DNA of 25,710 bases from Ktedonobacteraceae bacterium (lineage in GTDB: Bacteria > Chloroflexota > Ktedonobacteria > Ktedonobacterales > Ktedonobacteraceae), in assembly GCA_014896635.1 (NCBI GenBank), contig JADBKA010000047.1:1-25710 (forward strand), written 5' to 3'. This document shows, piece by piece, positions 13,117 to 25,710 of this stretch; the stretch's first letter is position 1; every line of letters begins with the position of its first letter. A program made the translations under genes and the position numbers. The notes beneath the pieces were generated by a model, which saw only the letters and a list, made by a program, of their open reading frames with translations, did not search any database and was not told where the DNA came from.

Positions 13117-13243
13117 GCGCTCTCCACATTACTCGTTTACTTTTTTCTGATAACAGCCTATCACATCCCGATCTGGCTCCACCGCTTTTTAGTACCTACC
13201 AGGACAGAAGTACAAAAGCATGGGCGCTCCTGCATGCCGGGCA

Positions 13244-15157
13244 TCACGGTTTCGCCGTTGGTGTGATGGCAGGCGTGGCAGTTGCGCCTGCTGCCGGCGT
13301 CGGCGTTGCCGAGCCGAGCTGGATCGAGAGATCGTCGAAGCTTTGCAGGTTCACGACGGTACCACTGCCAGCCACGTACGTCCCGGTTACGGTGTCGCCG
13401 GGCTGCACCAGCGGGAGCTTGGGCGAGAGCGAGAGGTTAGCGGTGAAAATGGCCTTCTGCCCCTCAACCTGGATATAGTAGACGGTATTCCCCCCCTGCG
13501 AGACGGGCGAGATGCGCAGCACTTTGCCGGTGAAGGTCTGCGTTGCACCGGCGGGCGCGCCGGTCCCGCTGCTATTCTGCACCAGCCACTGCTGGTAATC
13601 CTGCAAAGCCTGCGTGAGCGATGGCTCAAACTGCACATTGCTGCCATTCAGGTTTTTGGCGTCTACCATGCCGACAGCCTGAAAGATATCGCCGCTGGCC
13701 GTGTTCTGAACATAAATGGCGACCCAGGTCGGCGTATTAAAGATCTGATAGAGTTGCACGCTGGCAACATCGTAGTTGCGGATATTGGCGCGCGTCGATT
13801 GGAACGTCTTTACTACGTTATCACCGATACCCAGGCCGCTCAGTGGGTAGAAGTCGGCCTCATTTTTATGCGTATTGAACAGGAAAACGCCGGTGCTCGA
13901 ATTGTCGCTTCTGGATGCGGAAGTCACGGGAACCAGCCAGACGGGCTGGTCAACGCTGTTGTAGAGCAGTTCGGGATCGCTGGCCGGTTTCTGCTGGCCC
14001 TGACCGGAAGGATTGAACCAGGGCGCGTCGTGGTAGAGTCCCCACCATTGCAGGTATTGTGTCACTGTCTCAGCCGGCATGACGCGATCCACCCAGTTCG
14101 GCACGTTCTGCGGGCTGTAGCGCGTAATGTTTCCCGTGTGCGCATCTATCACCAGCACACCCTGCAAGTGATCACCTACATACCCGCGAATCGGTTGCAT
14201 CAACGAAACCGTCCAGTAGGGATGAAAGTTATCGTCCAGCTCCAGCGTGGGATCGAGCAGGCGATCAAAATTATAGCCGCTCAGATAGACGTGCCGCAAT
14301 AGATCCTGGTTGAGCAGCGCGCCGGGCAGGTACGCCAGTGAACTGCCGGGATTTTTCTCATCCGTGTAGAGCTTCGGCACCGCCTGCGGATTTTCGGCAT
14401 CTACAACCACAAAGCCGGGCGTGCGCGGGCTGGAGAGGTTGACGAAGAGGTTGTTATAGGAGAGAGGCGCGACATAATACAGGTGCTTGTTGATAGATTG
14501 CAACGTGTAACTGTCGGGATCAAGCCGGTAGGCTGAACCGAGATTCTGGCCCGTTGAGCCGAGAATCTGCTGCCCCTTGTAAGAGGCAACACTTTTGCTC
14601 ACCAGTACGATATGGCGCTCGTCGGTCGGCGGCATATCTTTCGCCTGCTTCATCTGCACATTGGGGATGGCTGCCAGCGCCTTCGCATTTGAATCGAACC
14701 AGGTCGTGAAGACGGTAATCAGAAAAGGCGCGGCAATGCCAAGCGCGGCAACAATGATCAGGCCGAAGATGCCAGCAGCAACCTGGCCGCGTGAGATGCC
14801 AGCAGGTACGCTGCGACTCGTCGTGCGACTCGACGAGCGATAGCCACCTTGCGCGGCGGCGGCAACTTCTTCCAGCGTCGCCATCGCGGGCCTGAAATAG
14901 GCAAACAGGTTGCCGACACAGCTAAAGATCAGCGGCCATGCCGTCCACTGCCAGCCCCAGAACGGGCCGGTGAAGGCAGGTAGGTAGAAGTAGAGGATAA
15001 ACAGGGAAAACAGGTAGTTAAAGATGAAATACCTGACGAACCAGTTCAGAAATTTGCGCGTGTCGAATTTTTCGCGCCTGCCAAAGGCAAGCCGTCCGAT
15101 AGTCAGCACGGCCATCACAATCAGTGTTCCGATCAGTGCCAGCAGAAAGATGATCAT
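13244..15157 (-). CDS. Large membrane protein of unknown function with an extracytoplasmic domain
   Basis: 637 residues from the ATG at 15157; the in-frame start at 15229 lacks an RBS, whereas AAGGAG lies eight bases before 15157. The N-terminal ~170 residues hold several membrane helices: about 1-20 (MIIFLLALIGTLIVMAVLTI), two or three more between ~40 and 95 (YFIFNYLFSLFILYFYLPAF, WTAWPLIFSCVGNLFAYF), and one at ~130-155 (AGIFGLIIVAALGIAAPFLI). The remaining ~470 residues are predicted outside. They contain MPPTDERHIVLVSKSVASYK and repeated statements resembling stored-value or solute-binding folds (GVLVIDAHTGNITRYSPQNVP), and end in a Pro/Thr/Ala-rich tail. I do not recognise a family with a known function. 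No partner gene is adjacent. Confidence 0.75.
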   Translation of the reverse strand: MIIFLLALIGTLIVMAVLTIGRLAFGRREKFDTRKFLNWFVRYFIFNYLFSLFILYFYLPAFTGPFWGWQWTAWPLIFSCVGNLFAYFRPAMATLEEVAAAAQGGYRSSSRTTSRSVPAGISRGQVAAGIFGLIIVAALGIAAPFLITVFTTWFDSNAKALAAIPNVQMKQAKDMPPTDERHIVLVSKSVASYKGQQILGSTGQNLGSAYRLDPDSYTLQSINKHLYYVAPLSYNNLFVNLSSPRTPGFVVVDAENPQAVPKLYTDEKNPGSSLAYLPGALLNQDLLRHVYLSGYNFDRLLDPTLELDDNFHPYWTVSLMQPIRGYVGDHLQGVLVIDAHTGNITRYSPQNVPNWVDRVMPAETVTQYLQWWGLYHDAPWFNPSGQGQQKPASDPELLYNSVDQPVWLVPVTSASRSDNSSTGVFLFNTHKNEADFYPLSGLGIGDNVVKTFQSTRANIRNYDVASVQLYQIFNTPTWVAIYVQNTASGDIFQAVGMVDAKNLNGSNVQFEPSLTQALQDYQQWLVQNSSGTGAPAGATQTFTGKVLRISPVSQGGNTVYYIQVEGQKAIFTANLSLSPKLPLVQPGDTVTGTYVAGSGTVVNLQSFDDLSIQLGSATPTPAAGATATPAITPTAKP

Positions 15158-15249
15158 GAATGTGACTCCTTGTAGAAATAAACATACAATAACAATAACA
15201 TGTACGGATGAAAGCCCTTTGTGATGCAATTTTCAGCAGGCGCGAATCA

Positions 15250-16849: not shown

Positions 16850-18973
16850 TTAGCCGGCGCTACTGCTGCCGAACTCTCTGAGTTCGGCCAGTTCTGACTC
16901 CGAGAGTTGGCGCGGTGTTTCGCCACGCGCGATTTTCTCGCTCTGCACAGCGCGGCGCACGCTCTCGACAATCTCCGGGTTTGCCAGGGTTGTCGTATCG
17001 CCAATAGCCGCGAAGTTGGTGATCGAGGCGAGGACGCGGCGCATGATCTTACCGGAGCGGGTCTTGGGCATATCCGCGACGATCCAGACATTTCTCGGTT
17101 TCGCAATCTTGCCGATATCGCGCTCAATCGCGGCGGAGACCTTCTCCTCAATCTCCTTGCTTGCTTTGATGCCCGGTTTCAGCGAGACATACACTTCAAC
17201 CACGCGCCCCCGCAGTTCGTCCATCATTGGCACGACGGCGGCCTCGGCAACCTCATCAACGGTGAGACAAGCCGACTCCAGCTCCTTTGTTCCCAGGCGG
17301 TGGCCGGCTACATTGATCACATCATCGACGCGGCCCAGGATGCGGAAGTAGCCATCAGCAGCCAGCACGGCGCCATCACCGGCAAAGTACGGCCAGTCGC
17401 GCCAGTCCTTACTCTCCTTGTTCCGGCAATACTTCTCATAGTAGGTCTGGACGAAGCGTTCAGGCTGGCCCCAGATGGTCTGGAAGATGCCGGGCCAGGG
17501 ATTGCGGATGCAGATGTTACCGGCGCGCCCGCTGCCGGCTTTGACTTCCTCACCCCGCTCATCATAGATCACGGGATAGATGCCGAGGACGCCCGGCCCG
17601 CAGCTACCAGGTTTCATAGCCTGCAAGCCTGGCATGGTACTGCACAGGAAACCGCCATTCTCGGTCTGCCACCAGGTATCGACGATCACCGCCTCACCTT
17701 TGCCAACGACGTTATAATACCAGCGCCAGACATCCGGCTCGATAGGCTCGCCTACCGTTGTCATATGCTTGAAATGGTAGTTGTACTTCTTCGGCTCATC
17801 GGGACCAACTTTGCGCAGCATGCGAATTGTCGTTGGCGCCGTGTGGAAGATATTCACATTGAGCCGCTCGGCGATACGCCAGGGACGACCGGGATCAGGA
17901 TACGTCGGCACTCCTTCATACATCACGCTCGTTGCCGCCAGCGCCAGCGGACCATAGACGATGTAGGAATGCCCGGTGATCCAGCCGATATCGGCGAAGC
18001 ACCAGTAGGTATCCTCCGGGTGAATATCCTGGTAGTATTTTGACGTGCCGGCAACGTATGAGAGGTAGCCCCCGGTACTGTGCTGGCAGCCTTTGGGTCG
18101 GGCCGTCGTGCCGCTGGTGTACATCAGGAAGAGCGGTGCCTCGGCGGGCATCGAGACCGGCTCCACAATCTTGCCACGATAATCTTTCAGCAAATCGTCG
18201 ATGAAGAAATCGCGGCCCTCAACCATCGGACTCTTCGAGACATAGCGGCCTGGATAGCGGCGCCAGACCAGCACTTTCTCAATCTCGACACCGCGCTCAC
18301 GGGCCACTCTCAGCGCATCGTCAGCTTTAGCTTTGTGATCGAGCAGCTCCCCATTGCGATAATAGCCGTCTATCGTCACCAGGATGCGGCTCCCCGAGTC
18401 GGCAATGCGATCTCCGCAGGCTGCCCCGCTGAATCCACCGAACACTTCGGAGTGAATAACGCCCAGGCGCGCGCAGGCTAGCATCGAGACCGGCAACTCC
18501 GGCACCATCGGCAGGTGGAAGGTTACGCGGTCGCCCGTCTTGACCCCGGCGAAATCTCGCAGCAGCGCGGCGAACTCGTTCACCCGCATGTAGAGTTCCT
18601 GGTAGGTGATCGCCTTTGTATCTTCTGTCTCCAGTTCAGGCACCCAGATGAAAGCGGCCTTGTTGCGGTATGTCGCCAGGTGGCGGTCCACGCAGTTATA
18701 GCAGGCGTTGAGCCGGCCACCGACGAACCATTTCCAGAACGGCGGGTTGCTGGTGTCCAGCGTCGTATGCCAGTAGTGATCCCATGTGAGGAGATCGGCA
18801 TATTCCTTGAAGCATTCGGGGAAGTTCTCCTCGCGGAATCGCTCAAAAATACCAGGATCGCTGGCGTTGGCCTGTCCGATAAACTTAGGAGAGGGTTGGT
18901 AGTTTTCCTCCTCTCGCCAGTGAACGGCGATCTGGGCTTCGGAGACGGCTATGCCTTCTTCTTCTCTCGCCAT
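16850..18973 (-). CDS. acs: AMP-forming acetyl-CoA synthetase (acetate-CoA ligase)
   Basis: A 707-residue adenylate-forming enzyme that converts acetate, ATP and CoA to acetyl-CoA, AMP and PPi. Signatures in order: the N-terminal ACS region with FWKWFVGGRLNACYNCVDRH, the P-loop-like MYTSGTTARPKGCQHSTGGY, FADIGWITGHSYIVYGPLA, GEPIEPDVWRWYY, VDTWWQTENGGFL, the hinge region AADGYFRILGRVDDVINVAG, and PKTRSGKIMRR with the Lys that is acetylated in well-studied Acs proteins. Two motif letters differ from the usual forms: TARPKG in place of TGxPKG, and QTENGG in place of QTETGG. Another short-chain acid as substrate cannot be excluded. AGGAGGT precedes the ATG. It is downstream of the acetate transporter gene on the same strand, with a structured leader between them. 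Confidence 0.92.
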   Translation of the reverse strand: MAREEEGIAVSEAQIAVHWREEENYQPSPKFIGQANASDPGIFERFREENFPECFKEYADLLTWDHYWHTTLDTSNPPFWKWFVGGRLNACYNCVDRHLATYRNKAAFIWVPELETEDTKAITYQELYMRVNEFAALLRDFAGVKTGDRVTFHLPMVPELPVSMLACARLGVIHSEVFGGFSGAACGDRIADSGSRILVTIDGYYRNGELLDHKAKADDALRVARERGVEIEKVLVWRRYPGRYVSKSPMVEGRDFFIDDLLKDYRGKIVEPVSMPAEAPLFLMYTSGTTARPKGCQHSTGGYLSYVAGTSKYYQDIHPEDTYWCFADIGWITGHSYIVYGPLALAATSVMYEGVPTYPDPGRPWRIAERLNVNIFHTAPTTIRMLRKVGPDEPKKYNYHFKHMTTVGEPIEPDVWRWYYNVVGKGEAVIVDTWWQTENGGFLCSTMPGLQAMKPGSCGPGVLGIYPVIYDERGEEVKAGSGRAGNICIRNPWPGIFQTIWGQPERFVQTYYEKYCRNKESKDWRDWPYFAGDGAVLAADGYFRILGRVDDVINVAGHRLGTKELESACLTVDEVAEAAVVPMMDELRGRVVEVYVSLKPGIKASKEIEEKVSAAIERDIGKIAKPRNVWIVADMPKTRSGKIMRRVLASITNFAAIGDTTTLANPEIVESVRRAVQSEKIARGETPRQLSESELAELREFGSSSAG

Positions 18974-19011
18974 TGTTCGATTACCTCCTGCATTTACAGT
19001 AATTTCGCGCC

Positions 19012-19137
19012 GCCCTTGCTACGTTGCAAGAGCATCCACCGGGTTCTTCAATCATTGCTCACGAAATACAACAATGATTGGGGAACCTTCAGATACCCAC
19101 CTGGCCGATAGATGGCCAGGCAGGCACCAGAAGGTTC
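19012..19137 (-). promoter_or_regulatory. Structured 5' leader of acs with alternative pairings
   Basis: Read on the minus strand, hairpin 1 is GAACCTTC ... GAAGGTTC (19130-19137 with 19083-19090) enclosing CCTGGCC/GGCCAGG (19114-19120, 19100-19106) with equal 9-base internal loops. Hairpin 2 is CAATCATTG/CAATGATTG (19072-19080, 19049-19057). Hairpin 3 is an 8-bp stem GCTCTTGC/GCAAGGGC (19026-19033, 19012-19019). GGTTC at 19083-19087 can pair either back into hairpin 1 or forward to GAACC at 19042-19046, extending hairpin 2. The Shine-Dalgarno of acs follows. No known riboswitch consensus is recognised; a regulatory function is inferred. Confidence 0.6.
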
Positions 19138-19154
19138 TAATTATTTCAACACCT

Positions 19155-19160
19155 GTTATA
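19155..19160 (-). promoter_or_regulatory. Possible -10 element of acs
   Basis: TATAAC on the minus strand (plus GTTATA) has five of six consensus bases and would start transcription about ten bases before hairpin 1 of the leader. No good -35 is seen, so this is tentative. Confidence 0.35.
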
Positions 19161-19228
19161 TACCATACTTTCACAATCCATGCCAGTCCGGTCAGCGGGC
19201 CGTTCAATGAAAAGCCCTGTCCCGGAGG

Positions 19229-19858
19229 CTATCCACGTGGACCAACAGGCAATGTAAAGATGCCGTTGTGGGCAGCAAGAATGCCGGCCAGCGCGGCATA
19301 CCATGCCGCGAGCGCGGTGAGGATACCCAGGTAGCCACCGATCATCGGCAGTCCGCCGCCCACAAACTCGCCTACACCGAGCGCCAGGAAAGTCAGGGTC
19401 AGCAGACCAAACACGGCGATTGTCGCCATGTTGATTCTCAACGAGCCGAGGAACATCAGGAAGGTGAAGATCGCCCAGGCCAGCAGGTAGATGCCGAGCG
19501 CAGGATGCAACATGTTCGCTTTCGTGAGAGCGTCAAGAACACCGGTGCCAGGAATAAAAATGACGGCGAAAGAAAGCCAGAAAGCGCCATAGGAAGAGAA
19601 AGCCGTTGCGCCAAAGGTGTTGCCGCTTCTGAACTCCCACATACCGGCCAGGAGCTGGGCAAGTCCACCATAGAAAAGGGCCAGACCTACAACGATGTTC
19701 ACTCCGGTACCGGGCAGCCAGCCCGCATTGAATGCGCTGAGGACAAATGTGGTCAGTGCGAATCCACACAGACCGAGAGGACCAGGATTGGCGACCGCAG
19801 GAGCTGCATAAGCAGCACGATTGCTCTCCGCTGCAATTTGAGCCACGATGCTTTCCAC
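19229..19858 (-). CDS. satP: Acetate uptake transporter, GPR1/FUN34/YaaH (SatP) family
   Basis: A 209-residue inner-membrane protein with six expected helices. The family hallmark ANPGPLGLCGFALTTFVLS is at about 23-41. Further helices are GVNIVVGLALFYGGLAQLLA, AFWLSFAVIFIPGTGVLDAL, LGIYLLAWAIFTFLMFLGSL, MATIAVFGLLTLTFLALGVG and LGILTALAAWYAALAGILAA. These proteins take up acetate or succinate with protons; acs lies downstream, which favours acetate. The frame opens with GTG at 19858, two codons after a stop, with AAAGG touching it. A GTG at 19846 has AAAGGTGG eight bases upstream and may be the true start (205 residues). Confidence 0.92.
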   Translation of the reverse strand: MESIVAQIAAESNRAAYAAPAVANPGPLGLCGFALTTFVLSAFNAGWLPGTGVNIVVGLALFYGGLAQLLAGMWEFRSGNTFGATAFSSYGAFWLSFAVIFIPGTGVLDALTKANMLHPALGIYLLAWAIFTFLMFLGSLRINMATIAVFGLLTLTFLALGVGEFVGGGLPMIGGYLGILTALAAWYAALAGILAAHNGIFTLPVGPRG

Positions 19859-20251: not shown

Positions 20252-22933
20252 CTACTTCTCCAGCGTACTCTTCGAGTTGCGCTCACCATCGTAGGTGAGC
20301 AGGATACGCTTGCCGTCATAAACGGTCTCCAGATGCACGGGACGGCCCCAGAGCAAGTAGACATGCTGGAGCGTCTTCTCCGCGTACACCAGGTCGAGTT
20401 CCTGGCCCTCGAAGAGGTGTTTGATGTAGAGTTCGCGGTTGCCGCGATAGTCGCCATTCTCGACAACCAGGTAGGGAAAGCCGAAATTGGTCATACTGGC
20501 AACAATGCTATCACGCACCTTCTGCCAGTTCTTTTCGACGATAACCCATTCATCGCCCTCTTTGCGATAGAGATAGAGATCGAGGTCTTTGATCAGATCG
20601 CCGGTCAGATAGTTGCGCAAGAAGGAGACGTCGTTATCCATTTCGCGCACTTCAAACATCTTCTCCTTGCCTTTCCCTGGCTGCCGGCCCAGTCTCTCTC
20701 GTTCCTCTTGCGTCGGATTATCCCAGCGCCGCTCGATGTCCTCGAAGATCTTGAAGCCGAGATAGTAGGGATTGAGCGAGGTACGTGATGGCGAGAGCAC
20801 ACCTGAGTGCAACTGTGCAAACTCTAGCATCTCGGCATCAGAGAGCACGCCGCGATCCCCCAGCTCGCGCATGATGCGCGAGTGCCAGATGCTGTTGTGA
20901 TGCAGCATGCCATTGGCAACATAGCGATGCGTGCGATCTACTGTGATGTCATACACATCGGCGACATCGCGCTCGATACTCACCACCTCGTCCACCGGGT
21001 CCTCTTTAAGAAACCAGCGATGACTTGCCAGGTACTGCTCCAACTTTTCCCGCTTACAGGCAAGTCCGAAATTGATCTCACGCGCAAACACCCGCGCCGA
21101 TTCGCCCTTGATGCGCACGTTCGGTCCATAGCGACGGGAGAGAATACCATAATTGAGCAGAACGATTTGCAGGGTCTGGGCGATCTCATCGCTATAAGTC
21201 GAGAGGATTACCCCATCCGTGAGCGAGGCACAGCCATCACAATCAAAGTACGCTCGTAAGAACGCACTCACAACAGGTCTGGGCGAGCGCAGAATGATAT
21301 CAGGAATACGCTTCTCCCGTGCTCTGGCTCGCAGATCGATCCCCAGAGATTGCAAGAGGTCGAGCACATTCGCTGAATAGAAGATAACGCGCCAGCGACC
21401 ACCCTTGCCGTTCGCCGTCCGGTCATCCCAGAATAGAGACGCTTCAATTGCAAACAGATTGGTGACAAGCAGCGCATAACGCTTCGCCAACTCAAGATCA
21501 CCGGAGGTAAAGCCGATGGCGTTCTTCGAGACATGGATATTGCCATCACCAACAAGGTAGCCGAGAAACTCGGCAAAAGCTTCAGTGACATGGGTAGGTG
21601 CAACAAGAGGGAAGCGACTCTTATACAGAGGTTTGCCCTCATTTCCAGGAGTGTAGCCTGTCTGCCTGATCGCCGCTTTTATGCGATCTTTAGCATACAA
21701 AGTCTTACCACTCAAGGAGCGATAAACCGTATGCGCGCCTACACCCGCCACCCGTGCCACATCTTCTACCGTCGCACTTACTTTGCGTACAGGTTGCGCG
21801 ATAGAGACGGGATGTTCAGGCCATATATTATCCCCCACACTCAAGGGAATACGCTGGCCGACCTTCACATCTTTCAGCGCGATCCATTGATCGGGTCCAA
21901 TGCTCAGTTTATGCTCTTCCGCACCTTCCAGAACCAGACCACGCCGTGTGCGCAAGCGAATTGTAGGAGCATTGCGACGTACATGCCTGTCAGTAATCCT
22001 GTCCAGTTCGCTATTACCACTCCCTACCGTCACAGCCTCATCTTGCGCCAGCATTTCGTGTAAGGTTCTATATCTTATAAAGCCTTTTTCAGTCAATACA
22101 AGGCTATTTCCCGTAAGGCAGGCCCAGCCCTCGTTCATGATCTTGGTCTGCATCTGTGGCACAAAGTAGAGAAACTCGGTGCGCACGATTTCGAGAATGT
22201 CGCGCTGCCAGGGTTCGAGATGGGGAGCGTGGCGAATCAGGAAGAGCAGGATATCCTTCTCAGGCTTCTCAGGGAACTTCGGCGGCTTACCGGGCAGGCG
22301 GTCGCGCTCCTCTTCGGCTTTCTTCATCCTCTCATCCAGTCCCCAGAGGTCATCGTAAGCGGTACTCACTTCCCTCGGCTTCTCCTCCTCTGGCTCCTTC
22401 TCCTCATCACCACGCAGGAAGAGGTTATAGTCCACATGCTCCTGAATGGAGAGCGCCGCATCGAGGAACCGCTCTACCACGTCCTTGCCATGATCAAACT
22501 CGTATTTCGCAATGCGCTCGGCATTGATGCTCACGCGGTCGATCATACGGCGCGAGGTGTGCTGGAAGTAGGCGTTATTCTTGAAGAAGTCGGTATGGCC
22601 GAAGACATGTGCCGCCACAAAAGTATTTTGCAGCAGGTCGTTCATCTCCATCAGGAAGGCGTAGCTTGGATTGGTATTGACCACCATTTCGTAGATCTTG
22701 CTCAATCCCAAGTCATACTGCATTTTCTGCCTATAGTACGCCTTGCCAAACGTCCAGTGGCTAAAGCGGCCAGGCAGGCTGTACGAGGCGAATTCGTACA
22801 TAATAGATGCAGGGACAAGTTCAAAGTGGGTAGGGAACGGGTCCAGGCCGAACTCGTGGGCTACCTCCCAGGCCGCATCTATAGAATCACGCAGGCGCTC
22901 GATATCGCTGTTACTTGAATCCATCAATGTCAT
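20252..22933 (-). CDS. spoVR: SpoVR family protein interrupted by an intein
   Basis: 893 residues as encoded: 271 residues of N-extein, a 409-residue intein (272-680) and 213 residues of C-extein. The joined exteins make a 484-residue protein, a normal SpoVR length. The N-extein has EFGLDPFPTHFELVPASIMY, FSHWTFGKAYYRQK, NTFVAAHVFGHTDFFKNN and VPQMQTKIMNEGWA. The C-extein resumes with SIWHSRIMREL, then LNPYYLGFKIFEDIERRW and YLTGDLIKDLDLY. SpoVR belongs to the PrkA/YeaH/SpoVR set used in sporulation and starvation stress; its biochemical activity is not firmly known. The RBS AGGAGGG lies seven bases before the ATG. It is the third gene of the minus-strand cluster, 232 bases after yeaH. Confidence 0.95.
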   Translation of the reverse strand: MTLMDSSNSDIERLRDSIDAAWEVAHEFGLDPFPTHFELVPASIMYEFASYSLPGRFSHWTFGKAYYRQKMQYDLGLSKIYEMVVNTNPSYAFLMEMNDLLQNTFVAAHVFGHTDFFKNNAYFQHTSRRMIDRVSINAERIAKYEFDHGKDVVERFLDAALSIQEHVDYNLFLRGDEEKEPEEEKPREVSTAYDDLWGLDERMKKAEEERDRLPGKPPKFPEKPEKDILLFLIRHAPHLEPWQRDILEIVRTEFLYFVPQMQTKIMNEGWACLTGNSLVLTEKGFIRYRTLHEMLAQDEAVTVGSGNSELDRITDRHVRRNAPTIRLRTRRGLVLEGAEEHKLSIGPDQWIALKDVKVGQRIPLSVGDNIWPEHPVSIAQPVRKVSATVEDVARVAGVGAHTVYRSLSGKTLYAKDRIKAAIRQTGYTPGNEGKPLYKSRFPLVAPTHVTEAFAEFLGYLVGDGNIHVSKNAIGFTSGDLELAKRYALLVTNLFAIEASLFWDDRTANGKGGRWRVIFYSANVLDLLQSLGIDLRARAREKRIPDIILRSPRPVVSAFLRAYFDCDGCASLTDGVILSTYSDEIAQTLQIVLLNYGILSRRYGPNVRIKGESARVFAREINFGLACKREKLEQYLASHRWFLKEDPVDEVVSIERDVADVYDITVDRTHRYVANGMLHHNSIWHSRIMRELGDRGVLSDAEMLEFAQLHSGVLSPSRTSLNPYYLGFKIFEDIERRWDNPTQEERERLGRQPGKGKEKMFEVREMDNDVSFLRNYLTGDLIKDLDLYLYRKEGDEWVIVEKNWQKVRDSIVASMTNFGFPYLVVENGDYRGNRELYIKHLFEGQELDLVYAEKTLQHVYLLWGRPVHLETVYDGKRILLTYDGERNSKSTLEK
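20894..22120 (-). mobile_element. SpoVR intein with LAGLIDADG homing endonuclease and LacI-like HTH
   Basis: The 409-residue insert begins with Cys (CLTGNSLVLTEKG, block A) and ends DVYDITVDRTHRYVANGMLH followed by HN (blocks F and G); the first extein residue after it is Ser. Block B reads GAEEHKL, keeping the His but with Ala where Thr is usual. LAGLIDADG motifs FLGYLVGDG (intein 185-193) and FLRAYFDCDG (287-296) keep both acidic residues, so the endonuclease may be active. At intein 114-160, between splicing and endonuclease parts, lies VSATVEDVARVAGVGAHTVY then RSLSGKTL and IRQTGYTPGN, which follows the LacI-family HTH pattern. The insertion splits a highly conserved SpoVR motif, NEGWA/S-x-WH. 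Confidence 0.93.
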
Positions 22934-24515: not shown

Positions 24516-25710
24516 TTAGCGGTTCAAGAGGCTGCCGGTGTAGCGGAGAATTTCGTTCGCGCACACGTGACAGTAGCCGTGCTCCGACATCAGACGATCA
24601 ACCACTTCATTGATCTTGCGCAATTGCTCTTTATCAGGTGTGCGGGTGGACGTTGTAATTTTCACCACATCGCGCAGGTCTGCGAACAGTTTCTTCTCGA
24701 TAGCCTCCTTGAGGCGCTCATGGCTGGTATAGTCGAAGGTTTGCCCTTTACGCGCCAGGGACGAGATGCGAATGAGGATCTCCTCGCGGAAAGAACGCTT
24801 GGCGTTCTCAGTTACGCCGATCTGTTCCTCAATAGAGCGCATCAGGTGCTCATCGGGGTCTACTTCCTCATCAGTGATAGGATCGCGCAGTTTGGTCCTG
24901 TTGCAGTAGGCCTCGACGTTATCGAGATAGTTGTTCAGCAGCGTACGTGCATTCTCTTCATACGAATAGACAAAGGCACGCTGCACCTCACGCTTCGCAA
25001 TCTCGTCGTACTCGTGGCGAGCCTCGGCGATAAAGTTCAGATAGCGCTCGCGTTCCTCGCGCGTAATGCTGGTATGCTGATCCAACCCATCACGTAGAGC
25101 ACGCAGAGCGTCTATCGGATTGATACAGGTCACATTCTGTCTGACGAGCGCGTTAGAGAGACGGTTAATCACATAACGCGGCGAGATGCCATCCATCCCC
25201 TCACGCTGAGCTTCCTCCTGCAACTCACGTAGATCTTTCTGCTTGAAGTCTTCCAGTTCCTCGCCATCATAGAGCTTGAGTTTCTTCATCAGGCTCATGC
25301 CGGCCTTCTTTGACGGCTCCAGGCGTGTCAGAACGGCGAAGATGCTGGCGACCTGGAGCGTGTATGGAGCAATGTGGACGTCCTTGAGCGCGCTCTGCTT
25401 GAGCAGCTTCTCGTAGATCTTGACCTCGTCGGAGACGCGCAGGTTATAGGGTACCTTCACCAGGATCATGCGGTCCTGCAACGCCTCTGACTTCTTGTTG
25501 CCGACGAATGCCTGATATTCGTGCTCATTGGTGTGGCTGACGACTACCTCGTCGGCATAGATCATGCTGAAGCGGCCCGTTTTGATGTTCTGCTCCTGGC
25601 TCAGCGTGAGCAGCACGTACAGGAATTTTTCATCGGTCTTCAGTAATTCCACGAACTCCATCAGGCCGCGATTGGCAATATTCAGTTCGCCGTCGAAGCG
25701 ATAGGCGCGA
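24516..25710 (-). CDS. prkA: PrkA-family serine protein kinase, C-terminal part (runs off the right edge)
   Basis: 398 residues are visible; the frame is open to the window edge, so the N-terminal AAA+ part with Walker A is missing. The visible part starts YRFDGELNIANRGLMEFVEL and includes KTDEKFLYVLLTLSQEQNIK, FSMIYADEVVVSHTNEHEY and VKVPYNLRVSDEVKIYEKLL, all typical of PrkA/YeaG, then the helical C-terminal kinase-like domain (DEHLMRSIEEQIGVTENAKR, SFREEILIRIS). It ends CHVCANEILRYTGSLLNR. PrkA phosphorylates proteins in starvation and sporulation and works with YeaH and SpoVR, whose genes follow. An internal Met at 25661 is not the real start. Confidence 0.95.
   Translation of the reverse strand, partial: RAYRFDGELNIANRGLMEFVELLKTDEKFLYVLLTLSQEQNIKTGRFSMIYADEVVVSHTNEHEYQAFVGNKKSEALQDRMILVKVPYNLRVSDEVKIYEKLLKQSALKDVHIAPYTLQVASIFAVLTRLEPSKKAGMSLMKKLKLYDGEELEDFKQKDLRELQEEAQREGMDGISPRYVINRLSNALVRQNVTCINPIDALRALRDGLDQHTSITREERERYLNFIAEARHEYDEIAKREVQRAFVYSYEENARTLLNNYLDNVEAYCNRTKLRDPITDEEVDPDEHLMRSIEEQIGVTENAKRSFREEILIRISSLARKGQTFDYTSHERLKEAIEKKLFADLRDVVKITTSTRTPDKEQLRKINEVVDRLMSEHGYCHVCANEILRYTGSLLNR

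Follow-up and report, generated by a model that had tools for sequence, protein, structure and literature searches.

A LacI-type helix-turn-helix module in the SpoVR intein of a Ktedonobacteraceae bacterium, a probable accessory module of its homing endonuclease

Why does an intein interrupting spoVR carry a segment that resembles the DNA-binding headpiece of a LacI-family regulator, and with which part of the intein does this segment work? The question is raised by a window of 25,710 nucleotides, the whole stretch of DNA that was analyzed (Ktedonobacteraceae bacterium, assembly GCA_014896635.1, contig JADBKA010000047.1). A preliminary description of this DNA had reported a LacI-type helix-turn-helix inside the SpoVR intein, and the peptide quoted there was located as claimed, at 21643-21781 on the minus strand (SpoVR residues 385-431, intein residues 114-160). 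The gene and its intein are made up as follows.

20252..22933, minus strand: SpoVR gene, 893 codons with the intein in frame (open reading frame list; Pfam SpoVR, 2.7e-141; SpoVR_C, 2.3e-13)
20894..22120, minus strand: SpoVR intein, 409 amino acids, protein residues 272-680, from Cys1 to His408-Asn409 with Ser at +1; insertion site NEGWA/SIWH
21836..22120, minus strand: N-terminal splicing part, intein residues 1-95 (NCBIfam TIGR01445, 21.8 bits, below the cut-off of 24.5; beta structure in the AlphaFold model)
21641..21775, minus strand: LacI-type helix-turn-helix module, intein residues 116-160 (Pfam PF00356, PDB profile search, AlphaFold model)
21746..21769, minus strand: module helix 1, intein residues 118-125 (AlphaFold model)
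21713..21736, minus strand: module helix 2, the recognition-helix equivalent, intein residues 129-136, with Arg134 at the position of LacI Arg22 (model, alignment register, conservation)
21659..21691, minus strand: module helix 3, intein residues 144-154 (AlphaFold model)
21026..21571, minus strand: LAGLIDADG homing-endonuclease core, about intein residues 184-365
21542..21568, minus strand: LAGLIDADG motif 1, FLGYLVGDG, Asp192 (Asp in 120 of the 121 rows, counting that of the window)
21233..21259, minus strand: LAGLIDADG motif 2, LRAYFDCDG, Asp295 (Asp in 121 of 121 rows)
20894..21025, minus strand: C-terminal splicing part, about intein residues 366-409 (TIGR01443 above its cut-off)

The Pfam SpoVR match is split into two pieces because the 409-residue intein lies between NEGWA and SIWH. 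The marks of an intein are present, namely, Cys1 at the N-terminal junction, a His-Asn C-terminal end, Ser at +1, and intein-free homologues (29 of 45 class genomes). Both LAGLIDADG motifs of the window intein possess their catalytic Asp (Asp192 and Asp295), and Pfam LAGLIDADG_3 is matched. The GC3 of the intein is lower than that of the flanking extein (0.53 versus 0.72), in keeping with foreign or mobile DNA. Considered jointly with the accessory role proposed below, it is probable from these sequence features that the SpoVR intein is a mobile element composed of a splicing domain, a two-motif LAGLIDADG endonuclease, and a LacI-type helix-turn-helix tethered between the N-terminal splicing half and the nuclease, with splicing and cleavage activity predicted.

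Further intein sites and genes were observed around this locus and in related genomes. The PrkA gene adjoining spoVR (window 24516-25709, minus strand) has an empty intein site with Thr (LK/TDEKF, junction near 25637/25638), and a PrkA intein of 442-458 amino acids is found at LK/C...HN/CDEKF in eight class-genome loci (L040, L042, L043, L045, and L067-L070). At the place of the LacI-type module these PrkA inteins have almost nothing, but past the nuclease core they carry a long additional region. SpoVR proteins P0225, P0229, P0243, P0244, and P0262 are 1098-1315 amino acids long, with a PF13403 Hint match in four of the five, and these features suggest a further intein within the same gene. 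Downstream of spoVR, and likewise on the minus strand (window 16850-19858), lie a gene of the Gpr1/Fun34/YaaH family and one resembling acetyl-CoA synthetase, which are likely to serve acetate uptake and activation. Long overlapping frames lie on opposite strands at 13247-15229 (minus) and 13220-14299 (plus); Pfam finds nothing in either frame at E ≤ 0.001.

The Pfam LacI profile, PF00356, matched a 56-residue piece of the intein with an E value of 2.3e-7 and 30.9 bits against a cut-off of 27, intein residues 117-158 corresponding to profile positions 1-45 of 46, and the 46-residue module alone reached 31.8 bits. In the whole intein the same profile gave 25.1 bits (E value, 1.5e-5) and in the whole protein 23.6 bits, so that the search proposed in the preliminary description passed the cut-off with the piece but not with the longer sequences; the full-length inteins L007, L011, and L012 also remained below it (20.4, 18.6, and 14.8 bits). 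NCBIfam LacI-family models matched the 56-residue piece as well (best E value, 3.2e-5, for GntR), far below their own whole-protein cut-offs. A PDB search with a profile of 12 family members placed LacI-family chains on top (best E value, 9.6e-6). At E ≤ 0.1, Pfam LacI was matched by 12 of 12 varied first-clade members, and of the 120 closest relatives (best 120 of 889 matches), just 11 have PF00356 in their precomputed annotation. The alignment register equates intein residues 129, 130, and 134 with LacI positions 17, 18, and 22, which we take to be base-contacting residues. Like the headpieces of the lac repressor, CytR, and PurR, the module has T-xx-DVA-xx-AGV-xxx-TV-xR followed by the L-x-G turn, and this part of the LacI pattern claimed earlier stands; however, the module is about three residues shorter than LacI between the turn and the third helix, and the hinge-proximal GYxP mark is mostly not kept, because its proline position holds P in just 18 of 121 rows and F in 82.

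An AlphaFold model of the intein (pLDDT, 91.6; pTM, 0.85) predicts three helices at residues 118-125, 129-136, and 144-154, between flexible stretches and ahead of the LAGLIDADG core. In blocks of ten residues, pLDDT was 87-90 over residues 121-150, 69 in 111-120, 73 in 151-160, and 48 in 161-170. A separate structure prediction from six rows had a pLDDT of 47.7 overall and of 76-84 in the blocks of 121-150. Fold searches were run with the whole intein rather than the module alone, and the absence of a LacI chain among the 50 matches listed is uninformative on the fold of the module. The Pfam match of the piece, the PDB profile search, and the high-confidence model, whose three helices lie where a LacI headpiece would have them, agree and support the earlier proposal of a LacI-type helix-turn-helix inside the intein.

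The distribution of the module was followed in protein searches taken from the best 120 of 889, 292, and 1082 matches, with about 8000 candidates scored in each. The first search returned 889 matches at E ≤ 1e-5, the best 120 of which were SpoVR proteins with an intein identity of at least 74%, from Ktedonobacteraceae or Chloroflexi where hosts were named. As the preliminary description had suggested looking for it in other SpoVR inteins, the module segment was sought in these and found in all 120 of the closest inteins listed (best 120 of 889), with gaps of 2-3 residues in 6 of 121 rows; a diverged form is present in a second clade. A scan of GTDB contigs gave 20 loci, of which 13 are SpoVR inteins in Ktedonobacteria/Chloroflexi records and the other 7 are archaeal and match the nuclease part, with 2 of these matches extending to the C-terminal end. 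The junction type is the same in 12 of the 13 Ktedonobacteria/Chloroflexi loci (L004-L016; the match of L010 ends at residue 393) and in 13 of 13 loci L054-L066. Among 47 class genomes, SpoVR was found in 45, with an intein in 14, uninterrupted in 29, and with the intein state not called in 2. Thirteen further genomes with SpoVR inteins at the same site were found among 400 genomes drawn from the phylum, a survey from which the match in G236 (intein residues 1-123) was left out.

A search with a second-clade intein gave 1082 matches, and the best 120 include Roseiflexaceae, Chloroflexaceae, and Herpetosiphonaceae proteins and one from Tepidisphaeraceae (Planctomycetota). From these 120 proteins 117 inteins were cut, three with an unmatched junction pattern being dropped. 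Equivalents of Arg134 and Gly138 are found in 106 of the 117, and the module score exceeds 0 in 108 of 112 second-clade inteins (<97% identity) and in 269 of 285 SpoVR inteins of the combined set. The Pfam LacI match is weaker in this clade and covers mostly helices 1-2, with 6 of 9 members matching at E ≤ 0.1, and the module profiles of the two clades align with an hhalign probability of 98. One ancestral module, with a diverged helix 3 in the second clade, is the likely reading of these profiles. A chance match to the LacI helix-turn-helix was also considered and is ruled out by the E values and the retention across the family.

With regard to origin, the module might instead be a generic helix-turn-helix of the HTH_31, HTH_17, HTH_3, or resolvase type, with a source other than a LacI regulator. 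Although other helix-turn-helix families match many members and HTH_7 is annotated beside LacI in P0154, LacI has the best E value (4e-8) and the most members matched in the first clade; and although the second-clade match lies mainly in helices 1-2, LacI leads the PDB lists obtained with the profiles of both clades. Inteins of other genes also speak against a generic module, since those of phage Romulus are gapped over helices 1-2 (its DNA-polymerase intein aligns over residues 1-409 with this gap) and PrkA inteins have about 6 residues where the SpoVR intein has 59 (G003). We therefore consider a generic source unlikely and infer that the module came from a LacI-family regulator.

To judge constraint on the module, dN/dS was estimated from 11 sequences with dS near saturation and 15-29 of 55 pairs usable (29 for the module), giving about 0.15 for the module, 0.12 and 0.06 for the splicing parts, 0.07 for the nuclease, and 0.24 for the linkers. 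The module is therefore under constraint, which is weaker than that on the nuclease and stronger than that on the linkers. Positions equivalent to LacI contacts are mildly more conserved than the rest (entropy, 0.83 versus 1.12 and 1.65 versus 1.85), and Arg134 is nearly fixed (145 of 149 and 109 of 113). On the evidence of alignment and model, the module is present, is predicted to form three helices, is under purifying selection, and is common to a large family of SpoVR inteins.

Trees of 33 rows (24 K, 9 O) separate the host groups for both intein and extein, and because both do so, no recent exchange between host groups is shown; recent transfer between them was rejected on this ground. 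Median identity between the K and O groups is higher for the intein (0.70) than for the extein (0.635), which is a hint of older transfer only, and within K it is lower for the intein (0.775 versus 0.845; 80 of 155 K rows used). Regarding viral carriage, a query with six peptide patterns from one sequence, able to reach only close relatives, had no match in IMG/VR. A phage collection returned 69 records, all below 60% identity; with the module alone it returned 35 records (best E value, 3e-3), mostly unannotated, the named ones including trehalose, sucrose, and other LacI-type regulators.

Next, the fate of the module was compared with that of the nuclease active site in 160 inteins under 97% identity (26 of 186 near-identical sequences dropped; D to E counted as Asp lost). 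Asp and module were both intact in 144, Asp intact with the module broken in 5, Asp lost with the module intact in 5, and both lost in 6 (Fisher P value, 8.7e-6, without correction for kinship). Four of the five Asp-intact inteins with a broken module have a 3-residue deletion, and two of the five Asp-lost inteins with an intact module have D to E. Module loss goes with kept splicing residues, because none of the 11 Asp-lost rows, 5 with an intact module, has lost Cys1 or the C-terminal His-Asn. Both are kept in the intein of Thermosporothrix hazakensis (L015) and in P0127, which lack the module and both catalytic Asp, and in that of Ktedonosporobacter rubrisoli (L013), where the module is broken and Asp295 lost. 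Within the second clade, loss of an Asp is accompanied by an altered or degraded module in L056, L058, L061, and L062. Neither motif Asp is left in L063, L064, and L066, nor is the module, and in L065, which is also without both Asp, only an unrelated stretch occupies the module place.

In a combined set of 285 inteins (262 with both Asp, 21 Asp lost, and 2 D-to-E set aside; 31 of 316 near-identical sequences dropped), 19 of 21 Asp-lost tips had a lower module score than their nearest relative with both Asp (Wilcoxon P value, 5e-5), as did 17 of 19 lineages, grouped by pairwise similarity and not on a tree (sign test P value, 3.6e-4). The difference exceeded 25 units in 14 of the 19 lineages versus 16% of intact-intact comparisons. 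Identity to the neighbor was lower in the module than in the splicing part in 17 of 19 lineages, a lean also seen in intact pairs (medians, 0.73 for the module, 0.82 for the splicing part, and 0.87 for the nuclease); in P0127 it was 0.74 for splicing, 0.62 for the nuclease, and 0.00 for the module. A strict independent-pairs test on paths sharing no branch had 9 supported pairs, averaging 3.5 with and 0.2 against (median P value, 0.25), and 2.5 with and 0.1 against under a stricter cut (P value, 0.5). This test agrees in direction and is not significant; it is underpowered, with significance out of reach. Exceptions occur both ways. Both Asp remain in P0137, P0218, P0261, and P0270, whose module is gone or altered; P0097, P0125, and P0150 lack an Asp and retain the module; and P0097 and P0202 have module scores above those of their neighbors. 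In P0218, P0261, P0270, and P0137 the module is replaced, scrambled-looking, or shortened, possibly through module swaps or recent decay. Overall, the alignments indicate a tendency of the module to degrade or disappear together with the nuclease active site, the splicing residues being retained.

Because the module tends to decay when the nuclease decays, it probably works with the DNA-cutting enzyme. Alternatively, the segment could resemble a LacI helix-turn-helix without contacting DNA and serve as a structural spacer or an aid to splicing, as might be argued from the sub-cut-off Pfam score of the full-length protein. However, all 12 varied members match Pfam LacI and LacI chains are the top PDB matches; the contact-equivalent positions are only mildly conserved, but Arg134 among them is nearly fixed; and several nuclease-intact inteins do without the module, while module loss accompanies kept splicing residues. 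On balance, we regard a spacer as quite improbable. The endonuclease role suggested in the preliminary description is thus supported indirectly: most inteins with an intact nuclease retain the module, and it tends to decay with the Asp, although the strict tree-paired test is not significant. Our preferred reading, which we consider probable, is that the module is an accessory DNA-recognition module of the homing endonuclease with putative DNA binding, probably captured from a LacI-type regulator. The LAGLIDADG core of the free intein would cut intein-free spoVR alleles, the LacI-type headpiece would dock on DNA beside the cleavage site, and its contacts next to the cut may change affinity or specificity for homing.

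A broader proposal views the free intein as a natural chimera of LacI and meganuclease: its headpiece, captured from a regulator, would anchor it to spoVR-operon DNA for homing and, while bound, influence transcription of the host operon. This proposal seems to us very improbable. Repression or regulation of the spoVR operon by the excised intein or its precursor, also raised in the preliminary description, is scarcely credible and is ruled out as the main reading: a LacI-type headpiece is present and would remain with the free intein after splicing, but in 409 amino acids Pfam finds no hinge, C-terminal ligand-binding (effector), or other regulator domain, the GYxP mark is mostly lost, the module tends to go with the nuclease Asp, and SpoVR is uninterrupted in 29 of 45 class genomes.

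In the literature searched, which left most subscription papers outside, no paper was found that combines SpoVR (or "stage V sporulation protein") with an intein, and titles and abstract openings on inteins and homing endonucleases, within the same scope, report no LacI-type module in an intein. Pietrokovski reportedly studied intein modules in earlier work. The kind of module is already known, because helix-turn-helix accessory domains have been described in TliVMA and PI-TkoII (PMC8966425, in the portion of the text available). The preliminary description's view that such a module was undescribed therefore needs narrowing to the LacI type, which does look new in an intein, as do the position before the nuclease and the retention across one family.

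It is proposed in PMC8966425 that inteins obtain accessory domains for DNA binding from other genes, among them those of transcription factors. The same text describes how deletion of the TliVMA helix-turn-helix-like accessory domain alters DNA cleavage and how this domain, instead of sharpening cleavage, made cutting at an additional site possible; it also describes the isolated domain as seemingly without added DNA affinity, and because of this, and because few relatives pass the Pfam cut-off, our confidence in the accessory-module reading is slightly lower. By profile and model, the SpoVR intein likewise joins a helix-turn-helix-like domain to an intein nuclease. In TliVMA (7qss), however, the accessory domain forms the link from the nuclease to the C-terminal half of the splicing domain, whereas the SpoVR module follows the N-terminal half and precedes the nuclease, and the TliVMA host is an archaeal VMA, with no LacI resemblance named in that portion of PMC8966425. 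PI-TkoII (2cw7) and PI-PfuI (1dq3) are likewise inteins with a nuclease and accessory domains, that of PI-TkoII being helix-turn-helix-like (PMC8966425, same portion); their hosts differ from that of the SpoVR intein, and the likeness is one of architecture, not domain by domain. WhiA (3hyi, 8dy7) also combines a LAGLIDADG scaffold with a helix-turn-helix (PMC11701221, in the part available), but it is a stand-alone transcription factor, while in the present case both nuclease Asp are kept and the whole combination sits inside an intein. Beside these systems, a recognizable LacI-type module kept in most SpoVR inteins compared (269 of 285) and tending to decay with the nuclease is a case bearing on the acquisition proposal in the available text of PMC8966425. 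The natural module-less inteins make the role of accessory domains directly testable, and the arrangement offers a ready-made LacI-meganuclease fusion for study.
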